Source: an uncultured bacterium
GTDB lineage: Bacteria > Hydrogenedentota > Hydrogenedentia > Hydrogenedentales > CAILVY01
NCBI GenBank assembly: GCA_937951485.1
Contig: CALEDJ010000039.1
Coordinates: forward strand, 1-62,987
Direction: 5' to 3'
DNA: 62,987 nucleotides
Position 1 is the stretch's first letter. Every line of letters starts with the position of its first letter. Of this stretch, positions 7,264 through 62,506 are shown in pieces. A program made the translations under genes and the position numbers. Under the pieces are notes generated by a model. The model was given only the letters and a program-made list of their open reading frames with translations, made no database searches and was not told where the DNA came from.

Positions 7264-8434
7264 AGGAATTCCCCGGAAAAAAATCGTCGTGCTGGGCGCG
7301 ACAGGCTCAATCGGCCGCAGTGCATTGGAGGTGGTGCGGCGCTGCCCGGATTTGTTTGAGGTGGTGGCGGTCGCCGCGCATTCCAACGTGAATCTCATCG
7401 CTGAGCAAATCGCTGAGTTTCGTCCGCGTTGCGCAGCGATGGGTGACCAATCTGCTGCCGCCAGGCTCAGGGAACGCTGTCCGGAGACCACCGTCTATGC
7501 CGGCCCGGAAGGGCTGGAGACGGTGGCCTCCCTTCCGGTTGATGTGGTGCTGTGCGCCATGGTGGGCGCCGCAGGATTGCGGCCGATGTTCGCTGCGATT
7601 GACGCCGGCAACCGCGTGGCTGTGGCGAACAAAGAGCCGGTCGTCATGGCGGGAAAACTTATCATGGAACGCGCCGCCGCCCGACACGCGGATGTCATAC
7701 CCGTTGATAGTGAACATAACGCCGTTTTCCAGTGCCTGCAAGGCCACAAGCGGGAGGATGTGCGCTGTATTCATCTCACGGCTTCGGGCGGACCCTTTTA
7801 TGGCAGGCCGCGCGAGACCTTGGCGCGCGTCACCCCCGAAGAGGCCACCCGGCACCCCACCTGGGACATGGGAGACAAAGTCAGCGTGGATTCCGCCACG
7901 TTGATGAACAAGGGCCTGGAAATCATCGAGGCGATGTGGCTTTTCGGCCTGCCGGAGGATCGCATTGCAGTGCTTATCCATCCCCAGAGCATCGTGCATG
8001 CGCTGGTGGAATTCAATGACGGTTCCATACTCGCCCAGATGGGCGTCACTGACATGAAATTCCCCATCCTCAGCGCCTTGACATGGCCGGACCGGGTGGC
8101 GTCGCCGCTCGGGCGTCTCGATTTGGCGACGGTCGGCGCGCTGCACTTCGCCTTGCCGGATTTCGACCAGTTTCCATGTCTCGCTTATGCCCGCCGTGCC
8201 GCCGCCGAAGGCGGCACCGCCCCCGCGATTCTCAATGCCGCCAACGAGATTGGCGTGCAGGCATTCTGCAATCACCGCATTACGTTTCTGGATATCAGCG
8301 AAGTGGTTCGGATTACGCGCGATTGCTGCGAAGTCGTGCAGGAATACAGCCTCGAAGATGTAGTGGAAGCCGACCGCGTTGCCCGTGAAAAAGCCGCCCG
8401 GACCGTGGAGCGGCTGGAAAGAAATCTTAAATGA
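7256..8434 (+). CDS. dxr: 1-deoxy-D-xylulose 5-phosphate reductoisomerase
   Basis: This 392-residue enzyme makes methylerythritol 4-phosphate in the non-mevalonate isoprenoid pathway. The NADPH-binding motif GATGSIGRSALE is near the N-terminus. VANKEP and DSEHNAVFQ are the metal and substrate segments, followed by TASGGPF and the MNKGLEIIEA signature. A GTG start at 7256 gives the normal length and follows CGGAAAGA; it overlaps the end of ptsI. It overlaps rseP by 4 nt (ATGA), and a dxr-rseP pair is common across bacteria. Confidence 0.97.
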   Translation: MSEGIPRKKIVVLGATGSIGRSALEVVRRCPDLFEVVAVAAHSNVNLIAEQIAEFRPRCAAMGDQSAAARLRERCPETTVYAGPEGLETVASLPVDVVLCAMVGAAGLRPMFAAIDAGNRVAVANKEPVVMAGKLIMERAAARHADVIPVDSEHNAVFQCLQGHKREDVRCIHLTASGGPFYGRPRETLARVTPEEATRHPTWDMGDKVSVDSATLMNKGLEIIEAMWLFGLPEDRIAVLIHPQSIVHALVEFNDGSILAQMGVTDMKFPILSALTWPDRVASPLGRLDLATVGALHFALPDFDQFPCLAYARRAAAEGGTAPAILNAANEIGVQAFCNHRITFLDISEVVRITRDCCEVVQEYSLEDVVEADRVAREKAARTVERLERNLK

Positions 8435-32587: not shown

Positions 32588-33483
32588 GCTTCACAAGTTC
32601 TGCAAAAAGAGGGCATGACGATCTCGGAAATTTGCTCACAACAAATCAATAAGGTGCCAGCACCATGCCTGGAAAGCAGAATATCACGAAGTCGTTGAAG
32701 AGGAGTCTTATCCGTACCTGGTGCTGGATGCGCGTTACGAGAAGGTGCGTGAAGACGGCGTGATTCGCAGCCGCGCCGTTCTGGTGGCGATCGGCATCAA
32801 CGCGGACGGCCGTCGCTGCGTTTTGGGGGTCGATCTGGCCAACCGGGAAAGCCGCAACAGTTGGCGGGACTTCCTGATTCGGCTTGAAGAACGCGGGTTG
32901 CGGGACGTAGAGTTCATTGTCAGCGACGACCACGAAGGGCTTAAGAAGGCCATCGGTGAAACATTTGCGCAAGCGGTCTGGCAGCGCTGCTACGTGCATT
33001 TCCTGCGGAACGCGCTCGATTATCTTCCGCGAAAAGCGGACGACGACTGCATGACGGATCTGCGCTGGATTTACGAGCGGCGCACCCCTGAGGAAGCCCG
33101 GCGCGATCTCGCGGCCTGGCTACGGAAATGGCAGGCACGGTACTCCAAACTCTGTGAATGGGCTGAATCCAATATTGAGGAAACCTTTGCCTTCTATCGG
33201 CTGCCGCAGCAGCATCACTGACACATGAAGTCCACGAACATGCTGGAGCGGGTCAACGAGGAGATCAAACGACGGACCCACGTCGTGCGCATCTTCCCCA
33301 ACGAGGCCGGTTGCCTGAGGCTGATACGAGCCTTGGCCATCGAGATACATGAAGATTGAATTGAGGCCACACGGTACCTCAATATGGACATTCCGGAGGA
33401 ACATGAGAAGATGATGAGATTTAATCGCCCGGACGCCGCATGAACTGGAGGGGCACCATGGCCTCTTTTGCAGAACGTGACGC
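32588..33483 (+). mobile_element. internally deleted IS256-family element
   Basis: Terminal inverted repeats are visible at both ends: 32588-32614 (core GTTCTGCAAAAAGAGG) and 33460-33483 (core CCTCTTTTGCAGAACGTGA). The span of about 0.9 kb is shorter than a complete IS256-type element (about 1.3 kb), because the 5' half of the transposase is missing. No target duplication is obvious at the flanks. The element is not autonomous. Confidence 0.75.
32682..33443 (+). pseudogene. IS256-family transposase, truncated with two in-frame TGA codons
   Basis: The C-terminal half of a Mutator/IS256-type DDE transposase is readable: YLVLDARYEKVRE, VVSDDHEG-like IVSDDHEGLKKAI, WQRCYVHFLRNALDYLPRKA, then RLPQQHH. 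The frame is interrupted by TGA at 33219-33221, continues HMKSTNMLERVNEEIKRRTH, is interrupted again by TGA at 33357-33359 where relatives have Trp (EIHEDW), and continues IEATRYLNMDIPEEHEK to a final stop at 33443. The N-terminal part, including the first catalytic region, is absent. This is a decaying gene, not a recoded one, because TGA is used as a normal stop throughout the window. Confidence 0.88.
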
Positions 33484-46604: not shown

Positions 46605-47765
46605 CTAATCTGTTTTGACGGTCTCTGCGGGGGAATGCTCCTGAACAGCATCGCGGAGGATGACGGTGAAGGTGGTTCCCTTGTCGGGTTCGCTTTCGAC
46701 CTGAATGTCGCCGTTGTACATTACGGTCAATTTCTTGAGAATCGAGAGGCCGAGTCCGCTGCCGAGAATGTCCTTGGTCCTGGCGTTCTTGATGCGCACG
46801 AATTCCTGGAAGAGTTTGGCACAATCCGCTTTGCTCATGCCGATGCCGGTGTCCGCCACGCGGATGACCGCCGTTGCGTCCCGGCGTTCGACGGTTACGT
46901 CCACACGACCGTTGTCCCGGTTGTATTTGATGGCGTTGGACACAAGGTTGTTGAGCACAATGTCCATTTCGGAGCGGTCGCCCCATAACGGCACGGGACC
47001 ATCAGCATGCAATTGCAGCGTAATATTGCGCGCGTTTGCTTCCGGGGCAAAGGTGTCGAGCGCATGTCGCGCGACTTCGGCCAAATCCAGGTTCGCGATT
47101 TCCCGTTTGCGTTCGCCCGACTCGATGCGTGTGAGGTCGAGCAGATCGGCGATCATTTTGCGCATGTATTCCGTGCGCGTAAGACAGCGGTCCACCATCG
47201 GTATGACCACCTTCGGATCATATCCGACACTGCCGTCCTTCAGCACCTGAAGATATCCCTCGATGGCGTTGAGAGGCGCCTTGAGTTCGTGGGCGAGCAC
47301 GGAAATGAACTGGAACCGAACCTTGCGCTTTTCCGCCGCCAGTTCCCGCGCGTGCCGCGCCACAACGAGATGTTCCGCCGCCTTGCGGACGGTATTCTTG
47401 AGGTCGGCGGGGGTGAACGGCTTGGGCAGGAAATCATATGCGCCCTGCTTGGTGGCGCGCACCGCCGTCTCAATCGAGGCGTAGGCAGTAATCATGATGG
47501 TGAGCATATCCAGGTTCATCTCCGAGATAATGTCGAGCGCTTCGATCCCACTCATCCCCGGAAGTTTGTTGTCCAACAATAAAATATGTTGCGGTGTTTC
47601 CCGGATGATCTCCAATGCCTGCTCCGCGCTTTCCGCCTCGGTCGTCTCGAAATGAATCTCCTTGTCAAAATTCGGCACCTGAACAATAAAACCACGCAGC
47701 ACCCGCGCCACCCCCGTCCGGATCCCAAGTTCATCGTCCACCACAAGCACTTTCATCAATTCCAC
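46605..47765 (-). CDS. receiver domain-histidine kinase protein
   Basis: The 386-residue soluble protein has an N-terminal receiver domain (acidic pocket Asp10/Asp11, phospho-acceptor Asp65 in LLLDNKLPG, Lys115 in LPKPF), then a HisKA dimerisation domain with the phospho-His at 159 (SVLAHELKAPLNAIEG) and an HATPase domain (NNLVSNAIKYNRDNG, DTGIGM, GSGLGLSIL). The receiver leads the kinase, so it can both receive and send phosphate. There is no membrane segment and no DNA-binding domain. A GTG start at 47765 has AAAGGAG eight bases upstream. It lies 40 nt after the Fe-S sensor kinase, in the same operon. Confidence 0.9.
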   Translation of the reverse strand: MELMKVLVVDDELGIRTGVARVLRGFIVQVPNFDKEIHFETTEAESAEQALEIIRETPQHILLLDNKLPGMSGIEALDIISEMNLDMLTIMITAYASIETAVRATKQGAYDFLPKPFTPADLKNTVRKAAEHLVVARHARELAAEKRKVRFQFISVLAHELKAPLNAIEGYLQVLKDGSVGYDPKVVIPMVDRCLTRTEYMRKMIADLLDLTRIESGERKREIANLDLAEVARHALDTFAPEANARNITLQLHADGPVPLWGDRSEMDIVLNNLVSNAIKYNRDNGRVDVTVERRDATAVIRVADTGIGMSKADCAKLFQEFVRIKNARTKDILGSGLGLSILKKLTVMYNGDIQVESEPDKGTTFTVILRDAVQEHSPAETVKTD

Positions 47766-47805
47766 AACAATCTCCTTTCCGATGCGGCAATATCCCCCCG
47801 CCCGG

Positions 47806-49860
47806 TTATTCTATCATTTCCGGAAAATCCTGATTTCCCGAAGATCGCGACAATGTTTCCTGCGGCGCCCCATGGCGCGGCAGCGTCACCGTGAAAGTGC
47901 TTCCCGTGGGACCGCTGCCGGGGTCGGCATTGGATTCCACGGTGATGTTCCCCCGATGCATCTTGACAATGCCGTGGGATACAGCCAAGCCCATCCCGGT
48001 CCCTTTTTCCCCTGCCTTGGTAGTGAAAAACGGTTCGAATATCTTTGAAAAATGCTCCTTGGGGATGCCGGTGCCGGTGTCGCGCACCGAAACACGAATC
48101 TCGTCCGGATCGCCCCACAAGCGGATAACCAGTTCGCCGCCCTGAGGCATGGCCTGGAGGGCGTTGCTGACCAGGTTGTTCAGGACCTGTGTGATCTGAT
48201 CGCGGTCAACGGACGCCAGCGGGTCGTCCAATTCATTTATAAAACGGACCGTCACGCCGTTTGGAACGGGAATCAAACGGAGCGCGCCTTCCGTGAGTTG
48301 CGCAATATCCGTTTCCTGCAAGGTGAGCCTGTTCTGCCGGGCGAAATGCAGCAGGCCGGCCACGATCTTTTTGCATCGGTCAGCCTGCGCCGCAATCAAT
48401 GAGAGGTCCTCTCTGATGGGTCCGTCGTGCGCATGTTCTTCCAGGAGCATATGTGCGTACATCAGCACCACGCCGAGAGGATTGTTCAATTCGTGTGCGA
48501 TGCCCGCCGCCAACTGACCCATGCTCGCCAGTTTTTCCGCCTGCACAAGAATCTGCTGCGTATGCGCCAGTTTTTCCTTCGAGACTGCCAGGTTTTGCAC
48601 CGTCTGCCGCAACCGCTCAATGGTATAGGGGAGACACATCTCGTTTTCCGCCAAGCCCTGGTAAATTGCCACGGCATGTTCACGGCAGGTCGCATAGCCG
48701 CACGCGCCGCAATTCAATTCGTCCTCGGCGCTGTATTTGCCCATGCGCTCCAGGATCGCCGCCAGTTCATGAAAAGACGGCTCCGGCGTGCGCCGGTCTT
48801 CAGGCGAAAATCTGCGCGACAGGTCCAATCCTTCAAACAGGGGCTGCTGCCGACGCAGTTGTTCAGGGTCAATGGAGGCGAGGCGCGTTCGCACGTACCG
48901 CCCGATGCGGGTCTTGCGGCGATAGAGGGGGCCTTTGTCACCGATTCCCGGACCCATCACGCACCCCTCGCAGGCCATCACCTCCAGCAGGCGCGCATGC
49001 CAGAAACCTGAATAAAACTCCTTGACCGCCTCCACGAAGCGGGTCCGTCCATCCGCCACCACGATTTCATCCGTCGCCAGGTTTTCCGGTATTCCCGCCG
49101 ACTGCAACAAGCCCCGACTTACGGGGAACAGGCGTCCCCGGCCCGCCAGCGGTGGATCAAATTCCGACCATGTCACCCTTTCCGGCGACAGACCGCCCTT
49201 GTGCAACATGCGACGCAATTCCTGAAAGGTCAGCACCGCATCTACGTCATAGGAAAACCGGTCAGCCTTTGCCTCGCCTTTCTTGGCAATACACGGGCCG
49301 ACGAACACAACCGGCGTTTCCGATCCATACAGTACTTTCAGGGCGCGGGATGCGGCGACCATCGGAGACACTATCGGCGCCAGCGCATCCACCAATTCGG
49401 GATAATAGCGCTCCACGTAGGTCACTACCGCCGGACAGGTCGTGGCTATGTATTGCTTGTCGCCCGCTTTGCCCAACAAACCCTTGTAGGCTTCGGCCAC
49501 CAGGTCCGCACCCGCAGCGACCTCAACAACATATCGGAATCCCAGTGCGCGCAACGCGCCTACCAGCGCACGATGATCCCAGTCGTCAAATTCCGCCGGA
49601 AAACTCGGCGCGACGATCGCCGCCGCGTCGCCGCCACAAAGCAGCATCTCCACCTCCGCAATCGAATCATAAACCTGTTTCGCCTGCTGCCCACAGACCC
49701 GCACGCAGTTTCCGCACCCGATGCAGCGTTCAGTAATCACCTCCGCCTGTCCGTCAACGATACGTATCGCCTTGGCTGGACATTCCCGGACACAGGTGTA
49801 ACACACGCGGCACCGCTCCTTGATGGTCCGCACCAGCGGAATGTCCGCTGACTCGCGCAT
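47806..49860 (-). CDS. hydrogenase-like Fe-S sensor histidine kinase
   Basis: This 684-residue protein combines redox and signalling modules. Two [4Fe-4S] ferredoxin motifs lie at Cys17/20/23/27 and Cys46/49/52/56. An [FeFe]-hydrogenase-like domain follows with three H-cluster motifs: ATTCPA (Cys142), GPCIAKKGE (Cys190) and MACEGCVMGPG (Cys297/Cys300). A further Fe-S motif is CGACGYATC (Cys384/387/392, with Cys409). The kinase has phospho-His456 (GIAHELNNP) and an HATPase domain (NNLVSNALQAM, DTGTGIP, GTGMGL). The proton-shuttle Cys of catalytic [FeFe] enzymes (CCP) is Thr here (TCP), as expected for a sensor. The start at 49860 is supported by AAAGGAGG. It sits divergently from the [NiFe] hydrogenase operon. 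Confidence 0.88.
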   Translation of the reverse strand: MRESADIPLVRTIKERCRVCYTCVRECPAKAIRIVDGQAEVITERCIGCGNCVRVCGQQAKQVYDSIAEVEMLLCGGDAAAIVAPSFPAEFDDWDHRALVGALRALGFRYVVEVAAGADLVAEAYKGLLGKAGDKQYIATTCPAVVTYVERYYPELVDALAPIVSPMVAASRALKVLYGSETPVVFVGPCIAKKGEAKADRFSYDVDAVLTFQELRRMLHKGGLSPERVTWSEFDPPLAGRGRLFPVSRGLLQSAGIPENLATDEIVVADGRTRFVEAVKEFYSGFWHARLLEVMACEGCVMGPGIGDKGPLYRRKTRIGRYVRTRLASIDPEQLRRQQPLFEGLDLSRRFSPEDRRTPEPSFHELAAILERMGKYSAEDELNCGACGYATCREHAVAIYQGLAENEMCLPYTIERLRQTVQNLAVSKEKLAHTQQILVQAEKLASMGQLAAGIAHELNNPLGVVLMYAHMLLEEHAHDGPIREDLSLIAAQADRCKKIVAGLLHFARQNRLTLQETDIAQLTEGALRLIPVPNGVTVRFINELDDPLASVDRDQITQVLNNLVSNALQAMPQGGELVIRLWGDPDEIRVSVRDTGTGIPKEHFSKIFEPFFTTKAGEKGTGMGLAVSHGIVKMHRGNITVESNADPGSGPTGSTFTVTLPRHGAPQETLSRSSGNQDFPEMIE

Positions 49861-50197
49861 CCGTCCTCCTTTGGTCGCGCAGCCCCGCAACATCAGGAAA
49901 CGTGGAGACGCTTCTGTCTCACAACGCCTGGCGATTTGTGCGACATCCGTATTCTAACCGGAAAAGCCGCGGATTGCACGAACGATGCGGGGGAGATTCT
50001 ACGAGAATATCAGTCAAGATTTTCAGCGCTGCGCACACCTGCCTCTTTTTTTTTGCGATACGCGCAACTTCATGGGAGCACGCTTCTTCTGAAAAGAAGT
50101 CGCGTTCGAGCATTCTGGTTTGCACATATTTTACCGTGATTTTTCTGGAAAAAAGAGAGAATCAAGATATACCTAACGGTAAATACAAATAATAGAT

Positions 50198-50238
50198 TTG
50201 GAAGGAACTGATTGTTATGCATACTGAACATTTGTTCA
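50198..50238 (+). promoter_or_regulatory. possible promoter and operator of the hydrogenase operon
   Basis: TTGGAA (50198-50203), a 16-nt spacer and CATACT (50220-50225) form a weak sigma70-like promoter. Directly overlapping its 3' edge is TGAACATTTGTTCA (50225-50238), a perfect 6+6 palindrome with a 2-nt centre, placed where a repressor or activator could bind. The rest of 49861-50534 has no gene; TTTACCGT (50130-50137) and ACGGTAAA (50176-50183) form another dyad. Confidence 0.35.
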
Positions 50239-50534
50239 TAATGTGGATTGAAAACCGCGCTGTTACGTTCTATAACGATCGGTAAGTTCGCCCCAAAGTA
50301 GCGCCCGGATCTCGTAGCGCGCAGCGCTGCAAGCGCGGTCGGTACATGGCATGGACGCAGTCCATCGTCACTGGTGAACATAGTGGCAGTAGAATGCGAT
50401 TCAGGAATTTGGGAAGCCTCAATGCGTCCGCGGGCAAACAGGCAACCGGCAGCGCGCAACCGGTGTTGCACGATTGCAGGACTTGTCGGCAAGGACGCAA
50501 AGGCGTTTCCCGCAACGGTGGAGGCAAGGAAGGC

Positions 50535-52313
50535 ATGGCAGAGGACATGAGAAGTTTGGTGAACCAGACGGTGGAGCGGTTTGGCAAAGACCGGCACCGC
50601 CTGATGGATATTGCGAGGGCGCTCCATGCCAGGTTGGGGTATCTGTCCGAGGAAACCATCGGCCACACTGCCCAGGCGCTTGGCATTCATCGGGTGGAAG
50701 TCCGCGACATGGTCAGTTTCTACTCGTTCTTTTCGCGTAAGAAACAGGGCAAGACGGTGATCCACCTGTGCAATGCGGTGGTGGAGCGCATGAAGGGCGC
50801 AGACGCAGTGGGTCGGGCCTTTGAACGGGAACTCGGCATTCATTTTGGCGAAACCACGCCGGACGATGCCATCACGTTGCATCACACGGCCTGTATCGGC
50901 CTGTCCGACCAAGCGCCCAGCGCACTCATCAACGGCATCCCGTTTACAAATCTCAAGCCGGAAGATGTGCCGGGTATTGTCAAGGCCATACGTGAAGGCG
51001 AAGACATGTTGAACATGCCCCAGGCGGAGGTGGACTCGAATGTGCGCCGTCCGGGCGAAGTGATTTTTGCGCCCATGGAGCGCGGCGCCGCGATTCGCAA
51101 AGCCATCAACATGACTCCGGAATCGGTCATCAATGAGATCAACAAGGGGCGCCTGCGCGGGCGCGGCGGCGCGGGATTTCCCACCGCGATGAAGTGGGAT
51201 TTCTGCCGCAAGGCAAAGGGGAACGCGCATTATCTTGTCTGCAACGCGGACGAGGGTGAGCCGGGCACTTTCAAGGACCGGGCCATTTTACAGGAATGCC
51301 CTGACCTGGTGTTTGAGGGCATGACCGTTGCCGGCTACGCCATCGGCGCGCGTGAAGGCATCATGTATCTCCGAGGGGAATACGAATATCTGCTGCCATC
51401 GCTGGAACGGGTGCTCGCCAAGCGCCGCCATTTGGGGTTGCTTGGAGAGAATATCTGCGGCTGTGAAGGTTTCTCCTTCAATATCCGCATTCAGATGGGC
51501 GCAGGCGCATATGTCTGCGGCGAGGAATCAGCGTTGCTGGAATCCGCCGAAGGCAAGCGCGGCGCACCGCGCGACCGGCCCCCCTTCCCCGTGCAGAAAG
51601 GATACAAGGGCGAACCGACATCGGTGAACAACGTCGAAACCCTGTGCTGCGCGGCCCGCATTCTGGACCGGGGCGGCGAATGGTTCGCCTCGATGGGATC
51701 CCGCGACTCCACGGGTACGAAACTGTTGAGTGTCTCGGGCGACTGCGAGCATCCAGGCGTCTATGAATTGCCGTATGGCATCACGGTAAAGAAACTCATC
51801 GACATGGTGGGCGCATCCGACGCTCAGGCGGTGCAGGTGGGCGGCCCTTCGGGACGCTGCCTTGCCCCGAAGGATTTTGGACGCAGCATCTCCTTTGAAG
51901 ACGTCCCCACCGGCGGTTCGGTGATTATCATCGGACCGGAACGCGACCTGCTGGAATGTGTGCGCCAGTTCACGGAATTCTTCGTGGAGGAATCCTGCGG
52001 CTGGTGCGTGCCATGCCGTTCCGGAACCACCATTCTGCTGAAAACGCTCGAAAAGGTCATGGAAGGGCGGGGCAGCCGATCGGACTTGGCCAATCTCGAA
52101 AAACTCGGCAAGACGGTCAAAACAATGAGCCGTTGCGGACTGGGCCAGACCGCAGCAAATCCAATCCTGACCACGATCAACGGCTTCCCTGATCTATATG
52201 AAGCACGAATCAAGCACGAAGAATATACTCCCGCGTTTGATTTCAAGAAGGCGTTGGAAGTGGGTTGCGAAGCCGCGGGCAGAAATCTTGAACTGGAAGG
52301 GATTCACGTATGA
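50535..52313 (+). CDS. hoxF: NAD-linked hydrogenase diaphorase subunit HoxF (NuoE-NuoF fusion)
   Basis: The 592-residue flavoprotein joins a NuoE-like thioredoxin-fold domain (about 1-145) to a NuoF-like domain. FMN and NAD(H) segments are GRGGAGFPTAMKW (210-221) and CNADEGEPGTFKDRAIL (236-252); the [4Fe-4S] ligands are Cys488/491/494 and Cys534. In the NuoE part only two of four [2Fe-2S] ligands remain: Cys79 and Cys120, with Glu84 and Ser124 where Cys is expected. That cluster is therefore probably absent. It transfers electrons between the hydrogenase and NAD(P). The start at 50535 follows AAGGAAGG. It overlaps hoxU by 4 nt. Confidence 0.92.
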   Translation: MAEDMRSLVNQTVERFGKDRHRLMDIARALHARLGYLSEETIGHTAQALGIHRVEVRDMVSFYSFFSRKKQGKTVIHLCNAVVERMKGADAVGRAFERELGIHFGETTPDDAITLHHTACIGLSDQAPSALINGIPFTNLKPEDVPGIVKAIREGEDMLNMPQAEVDSNVRRPGEVIFAPMERGAAIRKAINMTPESVINEINKGRLRGRGGAGFPTAMKWDFCRKAKGNAHYLVCNADEGEPGTFKDRAILQECPDLVFEGMTVAGYAIGAREGIMYLRGEYEYLLPSLERVLAKRRHLGLLGENICGCEGFSFNIRIQMGAGAYVCGEESALLESAEGKRGAPRDRPPFPVQKGYKGEPTSVNNVETLCCAARILDRGGEWFASMGSRDSTGTKLLSVSGDCEHPGVYELPYGITVKKLIDMVGASDAQAVQVGGPSGRCLAPKDFGRSISFEDVPTGGSVIIIGPERDLLECVRQFTEFFVEESCGWCVPCRSGTTILLKTLEKVMEGRGSRSDLANLEKLGKTVKTMSRCGLGQTAANPILTTINGFPDLYEARIKHEEYTPAFDFKKALEVGCEAAGRNLELEGIHV

Positions 52314-53026
52314 GTAAGGATGCGGTGACTTTCACCATTGACGGCGTGGAAGTGAAAGCAAAGCCGGACCAGACGATCATGGAGGCGGCCGATGCCGCCG
52401 GCATTTACATTCCCAGGCTTTGCTATCACAAGGACCTTTTGCCCGGCGGTCACTGTCGGGTCTGCACGGTGCGCGTAAACGGACGCCCCGCGAACGCATG
52501 CACCTTCCCGGTCAACTCGGGCATCGTCGTCGAGAACGATACCGAGGAACTCAAAGCGCTGCGGCGCGACATCATCGAGATGCTCTTCGTCGAGGGCAAT
52601 CACTACTGTCCTTCCTGCGAAGCGAGCGGAAAATGCGAGTTGCAGGCCATGGCATACCGGCTTGAACTGCTGACCCCGCAGATGCCTTATGCCTGGCCGA
52701 AACGCGAACTCGACGCCACGCATCCCGATGTCTATCTGGACCGCGACCGCTGCATTCTATGCGGCCGCTGCGTGCGCGCTTCCGTGCAACTTGACGGCAA
52801 GCGTGTCTTCGGATTTGAAAACCGCGGCGCACAGAAACGGATTGCCGTGGACAGCGCAACGGGCATGGGCGACACCGACTTGTCCGCCAAAGATCGGGCC
52901 GCAAGCATATGCCCTACGGGCTGTCTCACCATCAAACGCCAGGGATATCTCACGCCCGTGGGCAAACGCCCCTATGACAAGGTTCCCATCGGTTCCGATA
53001 TTGAAAAGAAACAGGCCGCGGGTTGA
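52310..53026 (+). CDS. hoxU: hydrogenase diaphorase subunit HoxU
   Basis: The 238-residue iron-sulfur protein matches HoxU / the N-terminal part of NuoG. Ligands visible: [2Fe-2S] Cys38, Cys49, Cys52, Cys64; His-Cys3 [4Fe-4S] His98, Cys100, Cys103, Cys109; another [4Fe-4S] Cys148/151/154 with Cys201 or Cys205. It links HoxF to the hydrogenase dimer. It overlaps hoxF by 4 nt and precedes hoxY by 29 nt. Confidence 0.93.
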   Translation: MSKDAVTFTIDGVEVKAKPDQTIMEAADAAGIYIPRLCYHKDLLPGGHCRVCTVRVNGRPANACTFPVNSGIVVENDTEELKALRRDIIEMLFVEGNHYCPSCEASGKCELQAMAYRLELLTPQMPYAWPKRELDATHPDVYLDRDRCILCGRCVRASVQLDGKRVFGFENRGAQKRIAVDSATGMGDTDLSAKDRAASICPTGCLTIKRQGYLTPVGKRPYDKVPIGSDIEKKQAAG

Positions 53027-53055
53027 CGGCGAAGCGCTAAGAGAGGGTTGACACA

Positions 53056-53595
53056 ATGACAAAACCATTAGTCGCGACCGGACACTTCACGGGATGCTTC
53101 GGATGTCATATGTCTTTGCTCGACATTGACGAACGCATCCTGGACCTGGTCCAACTGGTCGAATTTGACAAATCCCCCATCAACGATATCAAAACCTTCA
53201 ACCGGCCCGTGGATATCGGTATTATTGAGGGGGGCGTCAGCAATTCGGAAAACGTGGAATTCCTGCGGGAATTCCGCAAGTACTGCAAAATTCTCGTGGC
53301 CATCGGTTCCTGCGCGCTGACCGGCGGCGTCCCCGCCATGCGCAACACCGTCCCCCTCAAGGAATGCCTGCAGGAAGCGTACCTGGACGGACCAACGATC
53401 GTGAATGGGGTCATCCCCAACGATCCCGAACTGCCCATCCTGCTGGACCGCGTCTATCCCTGCCATGAAGTCGTCAAGATAGACTACTTTTTGCCGGGGT
53501 GCCCGCCGTCCGGCGATACCCTGTTCAACGCGATTGTCGCCCTGCTCAAGGGCGACGCGCTGGCCCTGCCGTATGAACTCGTCAAATACGACTGA
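53056..53595 (+). CDS. hoxY: [NiFe] hydrogenase small subunit HoxY
   Basis: The 179-residue protein is a short, signal-less small subunit of a group 3 cytoplasmic [NiFe] hydrogenase. Proximal-cluster motifs are TGCFGCHMS (Cys14/Cys17), IGSCALTGGVPAMR and FLPGCPPSGD. The lack of the extra C-terminal ferredoxin-type cluster region fits HoxY, which carries a single [4Fe-4S]. It lies between hoxU and hoxH. Confidence 0.95.
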   Translation: MTKPLVATGHFTGCFGCHMSLLDIDERILDLVQLVEFDKSPINDIKTFNRPVDIGIIEGGVSNSENVEFLREFRKYCKILVAIGSCALTGGVPAMRNTVPLKECLQEAYLDGPTIVNGVIPNDPELPILLDRVYPCHEVVKIDYFLPGCPPSGDTLFNAIVALLKGDALALPYELVKYD

Positions 53596-53612
53596 TAGGA
53601 GGTGAACACACC

Positions 53613-55061
53613 ATGGCGAAAACGGCGACACAAGGCAAACGAAAAATCACCATCAATCCCGTCACGCGCGTCGAAGGCCACGGAAAAGTGACGCTTCACC
53701 TCGACGATGCGGGCCATATCGAACAGGCCCGATTCCACATCATCGAGTTCCGAGGCTTCGAGCGTTTCGTGCAGGGGCGTTTCTACTGGGAGGCCCCGAC
53801 AATCGTGCAGCGCCTGTGCGGCATCTGTCCGGTGAGCCACCATCTCGCCGCGTCCAAGGCGATGGATGTCATCGTCGGCGCGGACAAGATCACGCCCACC
53901 GCCGAAAAAATGCGGCGGCTCATGCACTATGGACAGACCTTCCAGTCGCATGCGATGCACTTCTATCACCTGTGCTCCCCCGACTTGCTCTTCGGGTTCG
54001 ACGCGCCGGTCGAAAAGCGGAACGTTATCGCGGTCATCGAAGCGGCCCCCGAAACGGCGACCCATGCGGTCCTCATGCGCAAATATGGTCAGGAAATCAT
54101 CAAGGCCACCTGCGGCAAAAAGGTTCACGGCACCGGCTCCATTCCCGGCGGCATGAACAAGAATCTCAGCATCGAAGAACGCGATGTGTTCCTCAAGGAC
54201 ATTGATACGATGCTGGAATGGTCCGTAGAAGCGCTCAATCTCTGCAAGAAAATTACCTTGGAGAAGAAGGATTTTCTGCTGGCTTTCGGGGCCTTCGATT
54301 CCAACCACGTCGGCATCGTCCGGGAGGATGGCTGCCTGGACCTCTATGACGGCAAACTGCGCGCGAAGGCCGCTGACGGCGCGATCATCTTCGATCAGGT
54401 CGCCCCGGCGGATTACCTCGACTACATCGCCGAGGAGGTGCGCCCGTGGAGTTACATGAAGTTCCCCTTTATCCGCTCACTGGGCAAAGAGAAGGGCTGG
54501 TACCGCGTCGGTCCGCTTGCGCGCATTAACATCTGCGACTACATTGATACGCCCATCGCCGAGAAGGAACGTCAGGAGTTCATGGCCTTGGGCGGCGGCA
54601 AACCGATCAATGCGAGCATGGCCTATCACTGGGCGCGGATGATCGAGTTGGTGCATTCCGCGGAGAAAATCAAGGAACTGCTCAACGACTCTGATCTGCA
54701 GGGTGACAAACTGGTCACTTCCGGCAAGCGCCGCAATCGTGGCGTCGCATGGATTGAAGCGCCGCGCGGCACCCTTTTCCACCACTACGAAGTGAACGAC
54801 CGGGACCAGATTACGCTCGCTAATCTAATCGTCTCCACCACGAACAACAACGAGGCCATGAATCGTGTCGTACAAGTGGTTGCGAAACAGTACCTTGAAG
54901 GCAAGGAGATTACGGAAGGGCTGCTCAACCACATCGAGGTGGGCATCCGCGCCTACGATCCCTGCCTCAGTTGCGCCACCCATGCGCTCGGCCAGATGCG
55001 CCTGCACGTGCAATTGGTAGGCGCGGACGGCGCGGTGCTGGATGAGAAATATCGCGGGTGA
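53613..55061 (+). CDS. hoxH: [NiFe] hydrogenase large subunit HoxH
   Basis: The 482-residue catalytic subunit carries the nickel-iron ligands: Cys69/Cys72 in RLCGICPVSHHLA and Cys451/Cys454 in DPCLSCATH. A 25-residue tail follows His457 (starting ALGQMRL), the substrate of the maturation endopeptidase encoded next. It uses or makes H2 coupled to NAD(P) through HoxFU. AGGAGG lies before the ATG. Hyp maturation genes needed for the NiFe(CN)2CO centre are not in the window and must be elsewhere. Confidence 0.96.
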   Translation: MAKTATQGKRKITINPVTRVEGHGKVTLHLDDAGHIEQARFHIIEFRGFERFVQGRFYWEAPTIVQRLCGICPVSHHLAASKAMDVIVGADKITPTAEKMRRLMHYGQTFQSHAMHFYHLCSPDLLFGFDAPVEKRNVIAVIEAAPETATHAVLMRKYGQEIIKATCGKKVHGTGSIPGGMNKNLSIEERDVFLKDIDTMLEWSVEALNLCKKITLEKKDFLLAFGAFDSNHVGIVREDGCLDLYDGKLRAKAADGAIIFDQVAPADYLDYIAEEVRPWSYMKFPFIRSLGKEKGWYRVGPLARINICDYIDTPIAEKERQEFMALGGGKPINASMAYHWARMIELVHSAEKIKELLNDSDLQGDKLVTSGKRRNRGVAWIEAPRGTLFHHYEVNDRDQITLANLIVSTTNNNEAMNRVVQVVAKQYLEGKEITEGLLNHIEVGIRAYDPCLSCATHALGQMRLHVQLVGADGAVLDEKYRG

Positions 55062-55066
55062 TCGCA

Positions 55067-55900
55067 ATGCCGGGCAAGGGCGTTCTGGTGATAGGCTATG
55101 GGAATCCGGGACGCCGTGACGACGGCTTGGGGCCGGTTTTCGCCGAGGAATTGGAGACGTTGCGCCTGCCCGGTGTTGACAGCGACGCGACCTATCAGTT
55201 GAATATCGAAGACGGCGCGGCAATTGCCGCATACCCGAGGGTGGTCTTCGCCGATGCCAGTGTGGACGCAGCGGAACCCTTCGAGTGGCGACGCATCGCC
55301 GCGGCCTCGGAAATCGCGTTCAGCAGCCACGCAATGTCGCCTGAAGCGGTTCTGGCGGTCTGTGAAGAACATTTCCACAGCCGTCCGGAAGCGTGGGTGC
55401 TGGCGATTCGTGGATATGACTTTGAATTCGCCGAAGGCCTTTCGCCCCAGGCGCGTAAAAACTGCAACGAGGCGCTGGACTTTATCCAGGCGCTGATACG
55501 CTTTTGGAGGGAAGAGACCATGGAATCCAAGAAAAAGACCATTCTCGCCATTGACGACGATCCGGATATCCGGGCGGCCCTGCGCGTGGTGCTGGAGGCG
55601 GCCGGCTTCTCCGTGGGCGAGGCGGCCAACGGCGAAGAAGGACTGGAAGTGGCCAACCGCATCAAGCCCGACGCGGTCATCTGCGACCTCATGATGGAGA
55701 CCGTTGACTCCGGAAGCACGGTGGCCCTGAAACTCAGGGAATCCGGCTACAGCGGCCCCATCTACATGCTCAGCAGCGCCGGCGACGCTGTGCAGTACAA
55801 TCTGGATGCCCGCGCCCTCGGCCTTTCGGGCATTTTTCAGAAACCCATTGAACCGAAGACCCTCGTGAAAACGCTCAAGGCCGAATTGTTGGGCGAATAA
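55067..55900 (+). CDS. hoxW: hydrogenase maturation protease fused to a CheY-like receiver
   Basis: The frame encodes 277 residues. Residues 1-150 are a hydrogenase maturation endopeptidase (HycI/HoxW family) with metal-site residues Asp19 (GNPGRRDDGLG), Asp63 (VFADASVD) and His88 (SSHAMSP). Residues 152-277 are a receiver domain: acidic pocket Asp163-Asp165, phospho-acceptor Asp207 (VICDLMME) and Lys259 (FQKPIEP). No stop separates them. A GGAGGG precedes an in-frame ATG at 55520, so a free receiver may also be made. ATG at 55067 follows GGTGA; GTG at 55058 overlaps the hoxH stop. It follows hoxH directly and completes the hox operon. Confidence 0.92.
   Translation: MPGKGVLVIGYGNPGRRDDGLGPVFAEELETLRLPGVDSDATYQLNIEDGAAIAAYPRVVFADASVDAAEPFEWRRIAAASEIAFSSHAMSPEAVLAVCEEHFHSRPEAWVLAIRGYDFEFAEGLSPQARKNCNEALDFIQALIRFWREETMESKKKTILAIDDDPDIRAALRVVLEAAGFSVGEAANGEEGLEVANRIKPDAVICDLMMETVDSGSTVALKLRESGYSGPIYMLSSAGDAVQYNLDARALGLSGIFQKPIEPKTLVKTLKAELLGE
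55506..55522 (+). promoter_or_regulatory. internal ribosome binding site inside the protease-receiver frame
   Basis: GGAGGGAAGAGACCATG places a strong Shine-Dalgarno nine bases before an in-frame ATG exactly at the domain junction (Met152). It would allow separate translation of the receiver. Confidence 0.6.
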
Positions 55901-56169: not shown

Positions 56170-56307
56170 TGAAAGGAAACAGGTAAAACAGGAATTTATC
56201 AGATCACAGCCGCGTTTATTTAATCAGGCGCTTTGGTGCTGCATAAGTCCTGATTTGGCACCTTGGAATCCTTCATAAACGAAATTCCCCTTGGAAAGAA
56301 GGCAGAT

Positions 56308-57708
56308 ATGTTGGACACAACAAGCAGTACGATTATTGATTCGGACCGCATTCATGAAGTTCTGGCGCATCGCGCCGCCCCAGACGCGGCACATGTGCGC
56401 GAAGTGTATGACAAGGCGCTTGCACTGAAAGGCCTGGACGAAAATGATGTGGCCCTGCTGGCATCGGTGACTGATCCGGAATTGCTCGAAGAATTGTTCC
56501 ACACGGCGCGGCAGGCGAAGGAAGAGATTTACGGGCGTCGTCTGGTGCTCTTCGCCCCATTGTATGTGTCCAATCTCTGCGGCAATGAATGCAGTTATTG
56601 TGCATTCCGGGTAAGCAACAAGGCGCTGAAACGACGCGCCCTGCGCCAGGAGGAAGTTGCGCGGGAAACGCGGATTCTCATCGAACAGGGACACAAGCGG
56701 GTCCTGCTGGTGGCCGGAGAGGCCTATCCCCAGGAGGGCTTTTCCTACATTCTCAAATGCATCGAGACGATTTACGGTGTTAAGGATGAGAAAGGTGAAG
56801 TCAGGCGGATCAATGTCAATGTGGCCCCATTGACCGTCGAGGAATTCAAGGAACTCAAAGCCGCGAAAATAGGCACCTACCAGTTGTTCCAGGAAACCTA
56901 TCATCGGCCCACCTACGAGCAGGTCCATCTGGCAGGGAAAAAACGTGACTACGATTGGCGCGTCACCGCCGTAGACCGCGCCATGCAGGGCGGCATTGAC
57001 GATGTCGGCGTGGGAGTGTTGTTCGGCCTTTACGACTGGCGTTTCGAGGTGCTTGCGCTCATGCAGCATATTGCCCATCTGGAAGCGCAGTTCGGGGTGG
57101 GTTGCCACACCATCAGCGTGCCGCGCATCGAACCGGCCTTCGGCGCACCGGTTTCCGAACGGCCGCCCTACCCGGTAAGCGACACCGATTTCAAAAAGGT
57201 CGTCGCCATCCTCCGGCTGGCGGTCCCCTACACCGGCATCATCATGTCCACCCGCGAAACCCCGGAAATGCGCCGGGAAACCTTTGCGCTGGGCGTCTCG
57301 CAGATTTCAGCGGGCAGCCGTACCAATCCCGGCGGCTACAACGAAGACGGCGAACAATTCGACGGCAGCCAATTTTCGCTCGGCGATCATCGCAGTCTGG
57401 ACGAGGTGATTCGGGACATCGCCGAACTGGGTTACATTCCATCCTTTTGCACCGGCTGCTACCGGCTGGGGCGCACCGGTGAAGATTTCATGGATCTGGC
57501 CAAACCCGGCCTGATCAAAAATTTTTGCGAGGTGAACGCCCTCAGCACCTTCGTCGAATACCTGGTCAATTACGCTTCGCCGCGAACAAAGAAAGCCGGA
57601 GAACGGTGTATTGCACAGATTCTGGATGCGATGCCTTCTGCTCGACGCAAACGCGCGGAATCACTGATGGACCGCGTGCGCGCCGGTGAAAAAGACGTCT
57701 ATGTTTGA
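56308..57708 (+). CDS. hydG: [FeFe] hydrogenase maturase HydG (tyrosine lyase)
   Basis: The 466-residue radical-SAM enzyme splits tyrosine to supply the CO and CN ligands of the H-cluster. The radical-SAM cluster ligands are Cys91, Cys95 and Cys98 (CGNECSYC, the HydG CX3CX2C form). The C-terminal auxiliary cluster motif CX2CX22C is Cys381, Cys384 and Cys407 (FCTGCYRLGRTGEDF ... KNFC), which separates HydG from ThiH and HydE. The start at 56308 follows AGAAGG. It is separated from the other hyd genes by a repeat cassette and has its own promoter-like site. Confidence 0.97.
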   Translation: MLDTTSSTIIDSDRIHEVLAHRAAPDAAHVREVYDKALALKGLDENDVALLASVTDPELLEELFHTARQAKEEIYGRRLVLFAPLYVSNLCGNECSYCAFRVSNKALKRRALRQEEVARETRILIEQGHKRVLLVAGEAYPQEGFSYILKCIETIYGVKDEKGEVRRINVNVAPLTVEEFKELKAAKIGTYQLFQETYHRPTYEQVHLAGKKRDYDWRVTAVDRAMQGGIDDVGVGVLFGLYDWRFEVLALMQHIAHLEAQFGVGCHTISVPRIEPAFGAPVSERPPYPVSDTDFKKVVAILRLAVPYTGIIMSTRETPEMRRETFALGVSQISAGSRTNPGGYNEDGEQFDGSQFSLGDHRSLDEVIRDIAELGYIPSFCTGCYRLGRTGEDFMDLAKPGLIKNFCEVNALSTFVEYLVNYASPRTKKAGERCIAQILDAMPSARRKRAESLMDRVRAGEKDVYV

Positions 57709-58691: not shown

Positions 58692-60113
58692 ATGGCAGAA
58701 AAACGGTTGCGGATAGAGGGTGATCTTCTCGGCCAACGGGAAGTGGATGGGGACGCCATGCATGGCATCCACACGGTCCGCGCGTTGGTAAATTTTTCCC
58801 TTGCAGGGCGTCCGGCGCACCCGGAATTGACCCGCGCCTACGGCGCGGTGAAATTCGCCTGCGCGCGCGTCAATCGGGAATTGGGCGCCTGGACAAAGGA
58901 CCCGGCGAAAGCGGATGCGATTAGCCGTGCTTGCGAGGAAATGGCCCAAGGCCTTTGGGACGACGCCATATGCGTGGATGCGCTGCAGGGCGGTGCCGGC
59001 ACCAGCACCAACATGAACGTGAACGAAGTCATCGCCAATCGCGCCCTTGAAATTCTCGGTCTGCCGCATGGCGCCTATGAGCGCGTGTCGCCGACCGATG
59101 ATATCAACCTGCACCAATCCACGAACGACACCTATCCCACCGCGCTTAAATTGGCGGCCATCCGCCTCCTGCATCGCCTGGAACGCCGCGTGGTCATGCT
59201 GCAAGAGGCCTTTCAGGAAAAAGAGAAAGAGTTTGCGCATGTGGTCAAGGTGGGGAGGACCCAGTATCAGGATGCCGTGCTCACCACCCTTGGTCGGGAG
59301 ATGGGTGCCTATGCCGAGGCTTTCGGCCGCGACCGCTGGCGAATTTACAAGTGCGAGGAGCGCCTGCGCGTGGTCAATCTCGGGGGTACGGCCATCGGCA
59401 CTGGCATCGCCGCGCCGCGCGGCTATATTTTTCGGGCGGTCGAAGTGCTGCGCGAGATCACCGGCATCGGTTTCGCCCGCGCGGAAAACCTCGTGGACGC
59501 CACCCAGAACTGCGATGTCTTCGTTGAAGTTTCAGGCATTCTCAAAGCATGTGCCACGTCATTAATCAAGGTGTGCACCGACCTGCGCCTGATGTCGTCC
59601 GGTCCGGAAGCGGGGTTGGGGGAAATCCGCCTGCCCCCGATGCAGGCGGGGTCATCCATCATGCCGGGCAAAGTCAATCCCGTAATCCCGGAAGCGGCAA
59701 TCCAAGCGGCCCTCCTCGTCATGGGTTATGATCAGGCCCTTTGCACGGCCTGCGCCATGGGCAGCCTGGAATTGAATCCATTTCTACCCCTGGTCGCCGA
59801 ATGCCTCTTGAACAGTTGCACATTGCTTGAACGCGCCTGCGAAACGCTGGCAACCCGTTGCGTGGCAGGCATCGAGGCCGACGAAGCGCGTTGCCGCGCC
59901 CATGTGGAAGGCTCCACTGCGGTTGCCACCGCCCTGATCCCCGCCATCGGGTACGAACACGCCTGTGAGGTGGCTCGCCGCGCCAAGGAAACTGGACAAA
60001 GCATCCGGGAAATCGTGGTTGCCGAGCGTATTCTGGACGAAAGCGCGTATAATGACCTTATTGCGCCCGAAGCGGTATGCCGCCTCGGCATGCCGGGATT
60101 GCCCCTGCGCTGA
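58692..60113 (+). CDS. aspA: aspartate ammonia-lyase
   Basis: This 473-residue member of the fumarase/aspartase superfamily converts aspartate to fumarate and ammonia. Motifs: GAGTSTNMNVNEV (101-113), the HQSTNDTYPTALKLA block and the signature GSSIMPGKVNP (320-330) with the catalytic serine in the flexible loop. Overall it looks like AspA rather than FumC, although the two are hard to separate by eye. It lies between the TM1266-type gene and hydF, an arrangement also seen in other hydrogenase maturation clusters; ammonia supply for the azadithiolate bridge is a possible role (inference). Confidence 0.9.
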   Translation: MAEKRLRIEGDLLGQREVDGDAMHGIHTVRALVNFSLAGRPAHPELTRAYGAVKFACARVNRELGAWTKDPAKADAISRACEEMAQGLWDDAICVDALQGGAGTSTNMNVNEVIANRALEILGLPHGAYERVSPTDDINLHQSTNDTYPTALKLAAIRLLHRLERRVVMLQEAFQEKEKEFAHVVKVGRTQYQDAVLTTLGREMGAYAEAFGRDRWRIYKCEERLRVVNLGGTAIGTGIAAPRGYIFRAVEVLREITGIGFARAENLVDATQNCDVFVEVSGILKACATSLIKVCTDLRLMSSGPEAGLGEIRLPPMQAGSSIMPGKVNPVIPEAAIQAALLVMGYDQALCTACAMGSLELNPFLPLVAECLLNSCTLLERACETLATRCVAGIEADEARCRAHVEGSTAVATALIPAIGYEHACEVARRAKETGQSIREIVVAERILDESAYNDLIAPEAVCRLGMPGLPLR

Positions 60114-60125
60114 GGAAATAATGCA

Positions 60126-61430
60126 ATGCAATCCACGCCAAAATCCATGCGACTGCACATCGGCCTCTTCGGGCGGCGTAATGCCGGAAAATCCAGTCTG
60201 CTGAACGCGATTACCCGGCAGCAGGTTTCCATTGTCTCCGATTTTGCGGGCACCACCACTGACCCGGTAGAAAAACCCATGGAACTGTTGCCGTTGGGAC
60301 CGGTGCTGTTCATTGACACTGCGGGCATTGATGACATGGGTGCACTGGGTGAACTCCGCATCAAGAAAACCAGGCAGGTTTTCGACCGCACAGATTTGGG
60401 CGTGCTTGTGGCCGAAGCCGGAACCTGGGGCGCTTTTGAAGAGGAGATTCTGCGCGCCCTGAGCGAACGCAATGCCCCGGCGATTGTGGTGTTCAACAAA
60501 ACAGATGTAGCGCGACCGCCGGACGCCGTCATTGAAATGCTCAACACACAAAAAGTCCGTTGGGTGCAGACCGTCGCTTCCGAAGGGCGGGGCATCCAAG
60601 AGTTTCGACAAGCGCTTCTGGACGCCGCTCCAGAGGATTTTGTCAACAATCCGGCCATTCTAGGCGACTTGGTCGGCCCCGGGGAAATGGCCGTCCTGGT
60701 CGTGCCGATTGACAAGGAAGCGCCCAAGGGGCGTCTCATTCTGCCCCAAGTCCAGTCCATCCGCGATTTATTGGATTCCGACGCTTTTTGTATGGTTGTG
60801 AAAGAACGCGAACTGCGCTGCGCCTTGGACCGGTTGAAAACCCCGCCAAAACTGGTAGTCACGGATTCACAAGCCTTTCTGAAAGTGGCGGCAGATGTGC
60901 CGGATGATATTCCTTTAACAAGTTTTTCAATACTTTTTGCCCGTTTTCGTGGAGACTTGACCACGCAAGTGATAGGTACTATGGCCATTGACCGGCTCCG
61001 TGCAGGCGATCGGATTCTGATTGCCGAATCGTGTAGCCATCACCCCATTTCTGACGACATTGGCCGGGTCAAGATTCCCCGCTGGCTGACGCAATATGTC
61101 GGCGGAAAACTCCATTTTGACCATGTCCAGGGACATGATTTCCCTGAAAATCTCCAGGAATACAAACTGGTAATTCATTGCGGGGCTTGCATGACCAATC
61201 GGCGGGCCATGCTGAGCCGCATCCTGCATTGCAAGCAGGCAGGCGTGCCAGTCAGCAACTATGGGTTGACCATCGCCTACAGCCTTGGCATATTCGAGCG
61301 CGCCTTGCAGCCATTCCCCGCCGCCTTGGAAGCCTATCACGCGGAGAAAACACGACTGGCTGGCCGACCGGGCGGAATGCCGCCCGAATCGAATTCGGGC
61401 GCGTCCGATTATGTGTGCATCCGGTCCTGA
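60126..61430 (+). CDS. hydF: [FeFe] hydrogenase maturation GTPase HydF
   Basis: The 434-residue scaffold protein assembles the 2Fe subcluster and hands it to apo-hydrogenase. The N-terminal GTPase has a P-loop GRRNAGKSS (16-24), DTAGIDD and NKTD. The C-terminal cluster ligands are Cys303-x-His305 (SCSHHP) and His351-Cys352-x2-Cys355 (IHCGACM), as in known HydF. GAGG lies ten bases before the ATG at 60126. It is followed after 17 nt by hydE. Confidence 0.97.
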   Translation: MQSTPKSMRLHIGLFGRRNAGKSSLLNAITRQQVSIVSDFAGTTTDPVEKPMELLPLGPVLFIDTAGIDDMGALGELRIKKTRQVFDRTDLGVLVAEAGTWGAFEEEILRALSERNAPAIVVFNKTDVARPPDAVIEMLNTQKVRWVQTVASEGRGIQEFRQALLDAAPEDFVNNPAILGDLVGPGEMAVLVVPIDKEAPKGRLILPQVQSIRDLLDSDAFCMVVKERELRCALDRLKTPPKLVVTDSQAFLKVAADVPDDIPLTSFSILFARFRGDLTTQVIGTMAIDRLRAGDRILIAESCSHHPISDDIGRVKIPRWLTQYVGGKLHFDHVQGHDFPENLQEYKLVIHCGACMTNRRAMLSRILHCKQAGVPVSNYGLTIAYSLGIFERALQPFPAALEAYHAEKTRLAGRPGGMPPESNSGASDYVCIRS

Positions 61431-61447
61431 TCAAGGGAGTGCGTCGT

Positions 61448-62506
61448 ATGCATTTGAGTAAAGAGGAAATTCTCTATTGGCTCAAAGAGGATGACACAGG
61501 CCGTCTGGAGGCCCTGTACGAGGAAGCCGACCGGGTTCGCCGGGAAAATGTGGGGGATGCGGTACACCTGCGCGGGCTGATTGAAATATCAAATATCTGC
61601 TCGCGGGAATGCGGCTATTGCGGTTTACGTGCTGACAATCAGGGCGTGGAACGTTACCGCATGTCGCAGGAGGAAATCCTGCAATGCGCGCGGCAAGCCG
61701 TGGACTACGGCTACGGCACCGTCGTAATGCAGTCCGGTGAGGACTACGGCATCACGCGTGAATGGATGTCAGACCTGATCCGCGCCATCAAAACCGAGAC
61801 CCCGCTGGCGGTCACACTCAGCCTGGGGGAGCGGCCCGATGAGGACCTTGTTGCATGGCGCGAAGCAGGCGCAGACCGGTATCTCTTGCGGTTTGAGACC
61901 TCCGACCCCCAATTGTATTGCATCATCCATCCTGCGCCCAAAGGACGGCCCGGCCGGGACCGCATCGCCATGCTGCGGAGGCTTCGAGAACTTGGCTACG
62001 AAGTCGGCAGCGGTGTCATGGTGGGCATCCCCGGACAGACCTACGCCTCGCTCGCGCATGATATTGCATTGTTTCAGGAATTGGACCTCGACATGGTCGG
62101 CGTCGGCCCCTATATCGCCCATCCCTCAACGCCGTTAGGGTCCCGCGCAGTACTCCCCCTTGCGCCCGAGGGCGAACAAGCGCCCAACTCAGAGGAAATG
62201 ACTTACAAGGTGGTGGCGCTCACGCGCCTCGCCTGTCCCCAGGCAAACATCCCCAGCACCACGGCCCTCGCCACGCTCAATCTCGCCCAAGGGCGCGAAC
62301 TCGGCCTGCAACGGGGCGCAAACATCGTCATGCCCAACCTGACGCCGCCGCAGTACCGCGTTTTGTATGAGATATACCCGGCGAAGGCGTGTATCCAGGA
62401 AGACGCCGTTGCATGTCACACCTGCATGAAAGCGCGCATTCGGTCTATTGGCCGCACCGTGGGCGTGGGATCCGGCGGACGAAAGAGACATGCGGAGAAT
62501 ACCTGA
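61448..62506 (+). CDS. hydE: [FeFe] hydrogenase maturase HydE
   Basis: The 352-residue radical-SAM enzyme acts on the HydG product during H-cluster 2Fe assembly. The cluster ligands are Cys51, Cys55 and Cys58 (CSRECGYC), followed by VVMQSGEDYGITREW and GVGPYIAHPSTPLG typical of HydE. C-terminal cysteines (CHTC region) may hold the optional second cluster. The start at 61448 follows AAGGGAG; an upstream frame overlapping hydF is a shadow. It is the last gene of the maturation operon. Confidence 0.96.
   Translation: MHLSKEEILYWLKEDDTGRLEALYEEADRVRRENVGDAVHLRGLIEISNICSRECGYCGLRADNQGVERYRMSQEEILQCARQAVDYGYGTVVMQSGEDYGITREWMSDLIRAIKTETPLAVTLSLGERPDEDLVAWREAGADRYLLRFETSDPQLYCIIHPAPKGRPGRDRIAMLRRLRELGYEVGSGVMVGIPGQTYASLAHDIALFQELDLDMVGVGPYIAHPSTPLGSRAVLPLAPEGEQAPNSEEMTYKVVALTRLACPQANIPSTTALATLNLAQGRELGLQRGANIVMPNLTPPQYRVLYEIYPAKACIQEDAVACHTCMKARIRSIGRTVGVGSGGRKRHAENT

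Follow-up and report, generated by a model that had tools for sequence, protein, structure and literature searches.

A group C1-type sensory [FeFe] hydrogenase-histidine kinase encoded beside a [NiFe] Hox operon in Hydrogenedentota

The window analyzed here (the whole 62,987-nucleotide stretch of DNA, from a genome assembly of 4.55 Mb) encodes a protein that we identify, from its domain content, as a cytosolic histidine kinase with a fused sensory [FeFe] hydrogenase of the group C1 type, divergent from a [NiFe] hydrogenase (Hox) operon (Table 1). We consider it fairly probable that this kinase reports H2 or redox state and signals first to a co-encoded receiver-HisKA-HATPase protein (REC-HK), and that the sensory module moved from an [FeFe] hydrogenase operon to the Hox operon. 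This reading draws on 16 Fe-S cysteines conserved in 83 kinases, the fold of the hydrogenase-like domain (H-domain), [FeFe] linkage in 65 of 80 relatives, the REC-HK pairing, a clade of Hox-linked kinases, and co-occurrence with HydF or HydA. Weighing against it are a deletion in motif P3 of all 83 sequences (83/83) and several close kinase relatives unlinked to any hydrogenase.

TABLE 1 Features of the window considered in the text
Feature	Position	Strand	Remarks
REC-HisKA-HATPase protein (REC-HK)	46605..47765	-	Pfam; downstream of kinase
Group C1-type sensor kinase	47806..49893	-	2x[4Fe-4S] ferredoxin, H-domain, FeS motif, HisKA, HATPase_c
H-domain (Fe_hyd_lg_C)	48949..49623	-	P1 TTCPA, P2 GPCIAKKGE, P3 EVMACEGCVMGPG
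Intergenic region, kinase versus hoxEF, divergent	49861..50537	.	No clear shared operator
HoxE-HoxF fusion (NuoE+NuoF-like)	50346..52313	+	Probable start near 50538
HoxU	52310..53026	+	Profile matches
HoxY, [NiFe] small subunit	53056..53595	+	Profile matches
HoxH, [NiFe] large subunit	53613..55061	+	Closest to 5xf9
Hydrogenase maturation protease domain of fused ORF	55058..55519	+	TIGR00072
Receiver domain (Response_reg), in frame with protease	55520..55900	+	Internal ATG at residue 155, GGAGG before it
HydG, H-cluster maturase	56263..57708	+	TIGR03955, 522 bits
Aspartate ammonia-lyase-like (AspA)	58692..60113	+	Own sequence reading; homologues in 21 related loci
HydF, H-cluster maturase GTPase	60126..61430	+	TIGR03918, 565 bits
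HydE, H-cluster maturase	61445..62506	+	TIGR03956, 325 bits, residues 90-431; C-terminal part of ORF 61178-62506

Pfam profiles place in the kinase, from N to C terminus, a Fer4 pair, Fe_hyd_lg_C (PF02906, 163.8 bits), an FeS domain (PF04060), HisKA, and HATPase_c. The protein is 684 aa long from its second methionine (MRESADIP; probable start at 49860) and 695 aa from the first ATG. It combines an H-domain bearing cluster-ligating cysteines with HisKA and HATPase_c in the same chain, and its assignment to group C1 follows this architecture and the C1/C3 split in the available text of PMC11406978, rather than placement by the HydDB classifier. The Pfam scan found no PAS domain after the FeS motif of the kinase, which sets it apart from the C3/PAS proteins (HydS, BfuT), and PAS-type relatives formed a separate outgroup to the C1 kinases in a quick tree. 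The four-cysteine FeS motif is spaced Cx2Cx4Cx16C, as reported for group C/D sensory hydrogenases (PMC8163306). Across 83 aligned C1 kinases (that of the window, two paralogues from the source genome, and 80 loci, one sequence being truncated across ferredoxin 1), all 16 Fe-S cysteines (eight ferredoxin, four H-domain, four FeS) are kept wherever covered, and the phospho-acceptor H467 is present in every sequence covering that site. An AlphaFold model of the sensor region has an [FeFe]-hydrogenase fold (mean pLDDT 89.2), and the 50 Foldseek matches listed are all to [FeFe] hydrogenases or, in hydrogen-dependent CO2 reductase, to the HydA2 subunit. Cysteine conservation and modeled fold together argue that the Fe-S motifs are not a chance resemblance; along with the Pfam matches, they confirm the initial annotation of a histidine kinase with two ferredoxin motifs, H-cluster-like motifs, and a third Fe-S motif.

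REC-HK, which had likewise been correctly recognized as a receiver-HisKA protein in the kinase's operon, is probably co-transcribed with the kinase. The two genes adjoin in 72 of the 83 loci, with the receiver Asp65 and His159 of REC-HK conserved in 72/72, and a single receiver lies close to the kinase in 58 loci. No other partner adjoins the C1 kinase as consistently as REC-HK.

A scan of our genome collection returned 490 relatives of the kinase, 80 of which were kept. [FeFe] (Bfu/HydA) genes lie beside the kinase in 65 of these 80, spanning Planctomycetota, Hydrogenedentota, Fidelibacterota, Latescibacterota, Acidobacteriota, Myxococcota, and others, with the recurring order Rex-BfuC-BfuB-HydA-kinase-REC-REC/HK-HydE-HydG-AspA-HydF (with genes missing or rearranged at individual loci, or truncation at the end of a contig). 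The source genome carries its own [FeFe]-operon C1 kinase (contig C34, L008), in whose operon a further single receiver (L008 13471-13863), 43% identical to the Hox-protease receiver, is encoded downstream of REC-HK. A Hox operon adjoins the kinase only in the window and in two of the 80 relatives; the layout of kinase, REC-HK, divergent Hox operon, and protease-receiver is repeated exactly in a second genome (L015, identical to L118) and across a contig break in a third (L014, identical to L116, together with L117). Co-occurrence of the kinase with Hox and a protease-receiver, for which the initial annotation suggested a search, extends to these two genomes; the remaining relatives are mostly [FeFe]-linked. 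The broader suggestion of a kinase with an [FeFe]-hydrogenase-derived module in a hydrogenase-linked family holds at 67 of the 80 other loci (65 [FeFe], two [NiFe] Hox). At the other 13, neither hydrogenase type is nearby, some of these being short contigs. Six Hydrogenedentota kinases (L033, L043, L050, L071, L110, and L113, the last two from other genomes) have long flanks of unrelated genes, an arrangement that the initial annotation had named as refuting its phosphorelay, and their genomes encode [FeFe] maturases or HydA elsewhere. An orphan kinase in the source genome (L009) also has long flanks of unrelated genes and neither hydrogenase type nearby.

In the kinase phylogeny, which is a quick tree only, the three kinases beside Hox group together in a single clade (SH-aLRT 97), nested within a 16-member Hydrogenedentota clade (98) of mostly unlinked kinases, in a tree whose members are mostly [FeFe]-linked. 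Based on tree and gene order, the simplest reading is that kinase and REC-HK departed together from an [FeFe] operon and came to lie beside Hox at a later stage. In a near relative, L099 1-3061 encodes a 1020-aa group C protein in which an H-domain is combined with PAS-like regions and a kinase domain.

Among solved structures, the NAD-reducing hydrogenase 5xf9 is the best relative of the window's HoxH (564 bits), with HydL second, and HoxH/HoxY accompanied by a HoxEFU diaphorase indicates a group 3d [NiFe] hydrogenase. Assignment of HoxH to group 3c (MvhA-like), as suggested by NCBIfam, was rejected because 5xf9 is the best solved relative. In the Pfam scan, by which the HoxEF ORF was compared with the HydB-type subunit of bifurcating NiFe-HydABCSL and its extra B3-B5 clusters, this ORF had no Fer4 match, in agreement with the available text of PMC11406978 on group 3d in Hydrogenedentota. 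Downstream of the protease-receiver ORF, HydE, HydF, and HydG each score over their curated cut-offs, in the order hydG-aspA-hydF-hydE, the AspA-like gene being a recurrent member of the HydEFG block. A conserved operator was sought in the divergent region, where an inverted repeat from L118 was matched only partly in the window (49861-50537). In L118 itself (7852-8194), the repeat ACCGTTCG-N9-CGAACGGT surrounds a TATAAT-like box between the divergent kinase and hoxE. The earlier statement that the window encodes no DNA-binding output domain stands for the ORFs scanned (part of those in the window), with the exception of a Mutator-family transposase fragment at 32.7 kb (32721-33221). The source genome also has a second [NiFe] cluster (contig C18, L127 6197-15914), with NuoE/NuoF/NuoG-like and HoxY/HoxH-like genes, the latter at 34-37%, which adjoins a membrane histidine kinase of the same family as the kinase found after the Hox receiver in other genomes.

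The maturation protease that ends the Hox operon (71.6 bits to TIGR00072 versus a cut-off of 47.45) and the receiver form one ORF (55058-55900, +) on the opposite strand from the kinase, as the initial annotation had described. Protease residues D21/D22, D66, and H91, which we take to be the metal-site ligands, are invariant in five fused proteins, and the receiver retains the phospho-acceptor D, plus S/T and K. A literature search of limited scope found no earlier report of a protease-receiver fusion. Among 68 Hydrogenedentota genomes surveyed, 18 have this Hox type, and in nearly all of these a receiver follows the protease, either as one ORF (G000, G001, G002, G045, G050, G064, G065, and G066, with one intervening stop in G036) or as a separate adjoining gene with a short gap or overlap (G027-G030, G035, G039-G041, and G067). 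Five genomes with the protease-linked receiver have no C1 kinase (G035, G036, G041, G045, and G065), a diverged Hox operon in Planctomycetota (L126) has the same protease-receiver ending, and at least eight genomes encode a membrane histidine kinase no more than about 1 kb away from the Hox receiver. Because it is found in Hox genomes without a C1 kinase, often beside a membrane kinase, the receiver is read as an old part of the Hox operon that predates the pairing with the C1 kinase.

The survey yielded no specific support for the idea that phosphate passes from the C1 kinase to this maturation-linked receiver, which occurs without the kinase in the five genomes and L126, and which in several relatives is followed by a membrane histidine kinase instead. 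Such a relay is possible, and the receiver is a candidate second output of the kinase. Nearly an even chance can be given to the alternative that the receiver has no link to the C1 kinase, being a part of Hox phosphorylated by another kinase, so that the two modules are merely neighbors. The distribution among Hox genomes and the nearby membrane kinases both favor this alternative, whereas the window and L118 have no adjacent membrane kinase, the C1 kinase being the nearest, and [FeFe] operons place a single receiver near the C1 kinase in the 58 loci noted above.

We lean somewhat against a further possibility, that the fusion mainly represents a lost stop between two cistrons and that what functions is a separate receiver made from an internal start. 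Every fused ORF whose junction could be read (7/7) has an ATG in frame where the receiver begins, with GGAGG or AAGGAG ~6-9 nt before it, and protease and receiver are separate genes in the other genomes listed. However, the fused frame is open in eight genomes from several genera, and a continuous helix is predicted over the junction, albeit with low inter-domain confidence (pTM 0.52). Given the internal ATG and ribosome-binding-like site, a free receiver may also be produced from the fused ORF.

The capacity of the sensor to hold an H-cluster is put in question by motif P3. In the window kinase, this motif (EVMACEGCVMGPG) is one residue shorter than the catalytic P3, and all 83 C1 proteins have C-x-G-C in place of C-x-x-G-C. 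The deletion is absent from the catalytic, C3, and other PAS-type group C proteins compared, the PAS-type comparison comprising C3/PAS loci from the same phylum, Hydrogenedentota, and published descriptions of TmHydS. It may prevent the normal [2Fe]-bridging cysteine, and since P3 is altered in all 83 proteins, H2 sensing and plain Fe-S redox sensing both remain readings. The window kinase also has Thr for the proton-relay cysteine (CpI C299) and Gly for Met353 (CpI numbering by motif). According to the available text of PMC11406978, H-cluster motifs could "hardly" be found in Hydrogenedentota C1 proteins, and their ability to sense H2 was left undecided. In addition, the source genome encodes a 548-aa protein (contig C29, L012 8254-9900) that has HATPase, two ferredoxin motifs, an FeS motif, and a degenerate H-domain without the P2 Lys; it resembles a relative of the sensor that has decayed or been repurposed, and indicates that the scaffold can decay. 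These features could be explained if the C1 module had lost the [2Fe] subsite and become a plain Fe-S redox (or O2) sensor kinase on a hydrogenase scaffold, an explanation that we take seriously and yet consider rather doubtful. All 83 proteins retain the P2 Lys along with the four H-domain cysteines, the APS motif is kept in those compared, and changes at the C299 and M353 positions are also known from TmHydS/TamHydS-type sensors that carry H-clusters (PMC10055695, PMC8163306).

The close tracking of HydF and HydA by C1 kinases likewise argues against loss of the [2Fe] subsite. HydF was detected in 22/23 Phycisphaerae genomes with a C1 kinase versus 27/175 others (P = 1e-14), and in 25/30 versus 7/38 for Hydrogenedentota (P = 1e-7), P values that are only a guide as the genomes are not independent. 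Among the 18 Hox genomes, HydF or HydA is present in each of the 13 that carry a C1 kinase, versus HydF in 0/5 of those without (HydG occurs in one, G065). From this distribution, the C1 kinase appears to follow the [FeFe] machinery and not Hox. An H-cluster in C1 is therefore possible, and the pattern is compatible with a HydEFG-made cofactor in the kinase, although the co-occurrence is confounded: an operon shared with HydA would yield the same pattern. All seven C1 genomes lacking HydF (five Hydrogenedentota, Phycisphaerae G228, and Desulfobacteraceae G080) have catalytic HydA, and two have HydE over the cut-off. Absence of HydF was thus dropped as evidence against an H-cluster, since assembly loss is the likelier cause, which makes the maturase-absence test uninformative. 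A literature search found no biochemistry or other experiment on group C1.

In the reading we favor, of a C1 kinase signaling first to REC-HK, the H-domain would be charged by the neighboring HydEFG or, failing a [2Fe] unit, would rely on its [4Fe-4S] clusters only. The H-domain would report H2 or the redox state of ferredoxin via the FeS hinge to HisKA, and phosphate would then go first to the receiver of REC-HK (the pairing is observed, the transfer predicted), with the older Hox-protease receiver as a putative second target. Tree and gene order suggest that the module arose inside bifurcating [FeFe] operons and, in this lineage, shifted beside hoxEFUYH, which makes an [FeFe]-type sensor the neighbor of a [NiFe] enzyme. 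It seems improbable that this sensor controls the [NiFe] hydrogenase post-translationally, with phosphorylation of the protease-receiver switching C-terminal processing of HoxH; if true, one hydrogenase class would sense H2 and gate the maturation of another.

Group C1 has been catalogued as putative H2 sensors, and the survey provides these with conserved partners (REC-HK in 72/83 loci, a single receiver in 58), while the P3 deletion poses a sharp sequence question for the group. Moreover, with a phosphate receiver by the maturation protease at the end of Hox operons, control of hydrogenase maturation by phosphorylation can be tested directly.

In the available text of its description, HydDB lists group C1 as "histidine kinase-linked (putative)" [FeFe] hydrogenases (PMC5037454), and that of PMC11406978 reports 53 in Hydrogenedentota, often adjoining group A3 (Bfu) hydrogenases. 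The window kinase resembles these in its H-domain with HATPase/histidine kinase and in its phylum, but its neighbor is a Hox operon of the [NiFe] type, unlike that of the C1 proteins reported there; as far as the available text of both accounts goes, neither describes a REC-HK partner, a shortened P3, or a clade of Hox-linked kinases. With TmHydS, TamHydS, and R. albus HydS (groups C and D), it shares 2x[4Fe-4S], the H-domain, Cx2Cx4Cx16C, and altered C299 and M353 positions. Those proteins have a PAS domain (group C) or no fused signaling domain (group D), and no fused kinase, whereas the window kinase is fused; the C3 and other PAS-type relatives compared also have a full-length P3, in contrast to its shortened one. 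As in HoxBC-HoxJ (group 2b), a hydrogenase-derived sensor would control a histidine kinase beside hydrogenase genes (PMC5707799), a likeness in mode of action. The HoxBC-HoxJ sensor, however, is a [NiFe] protein in a separate complex, non-homologous to C1, and its output, HoxA, is a transcriptional activator. The Hox operon itself matches group 3d HoxEFUYH with a HoxW-type protease in subunit set and sequence (HoxH at 564 bits to 5xf9), but ends in a receiver domain, either fused or adjacent to the protease. The C1 kinase is of a known kind, here in a new, [NiFe] Hox setting.
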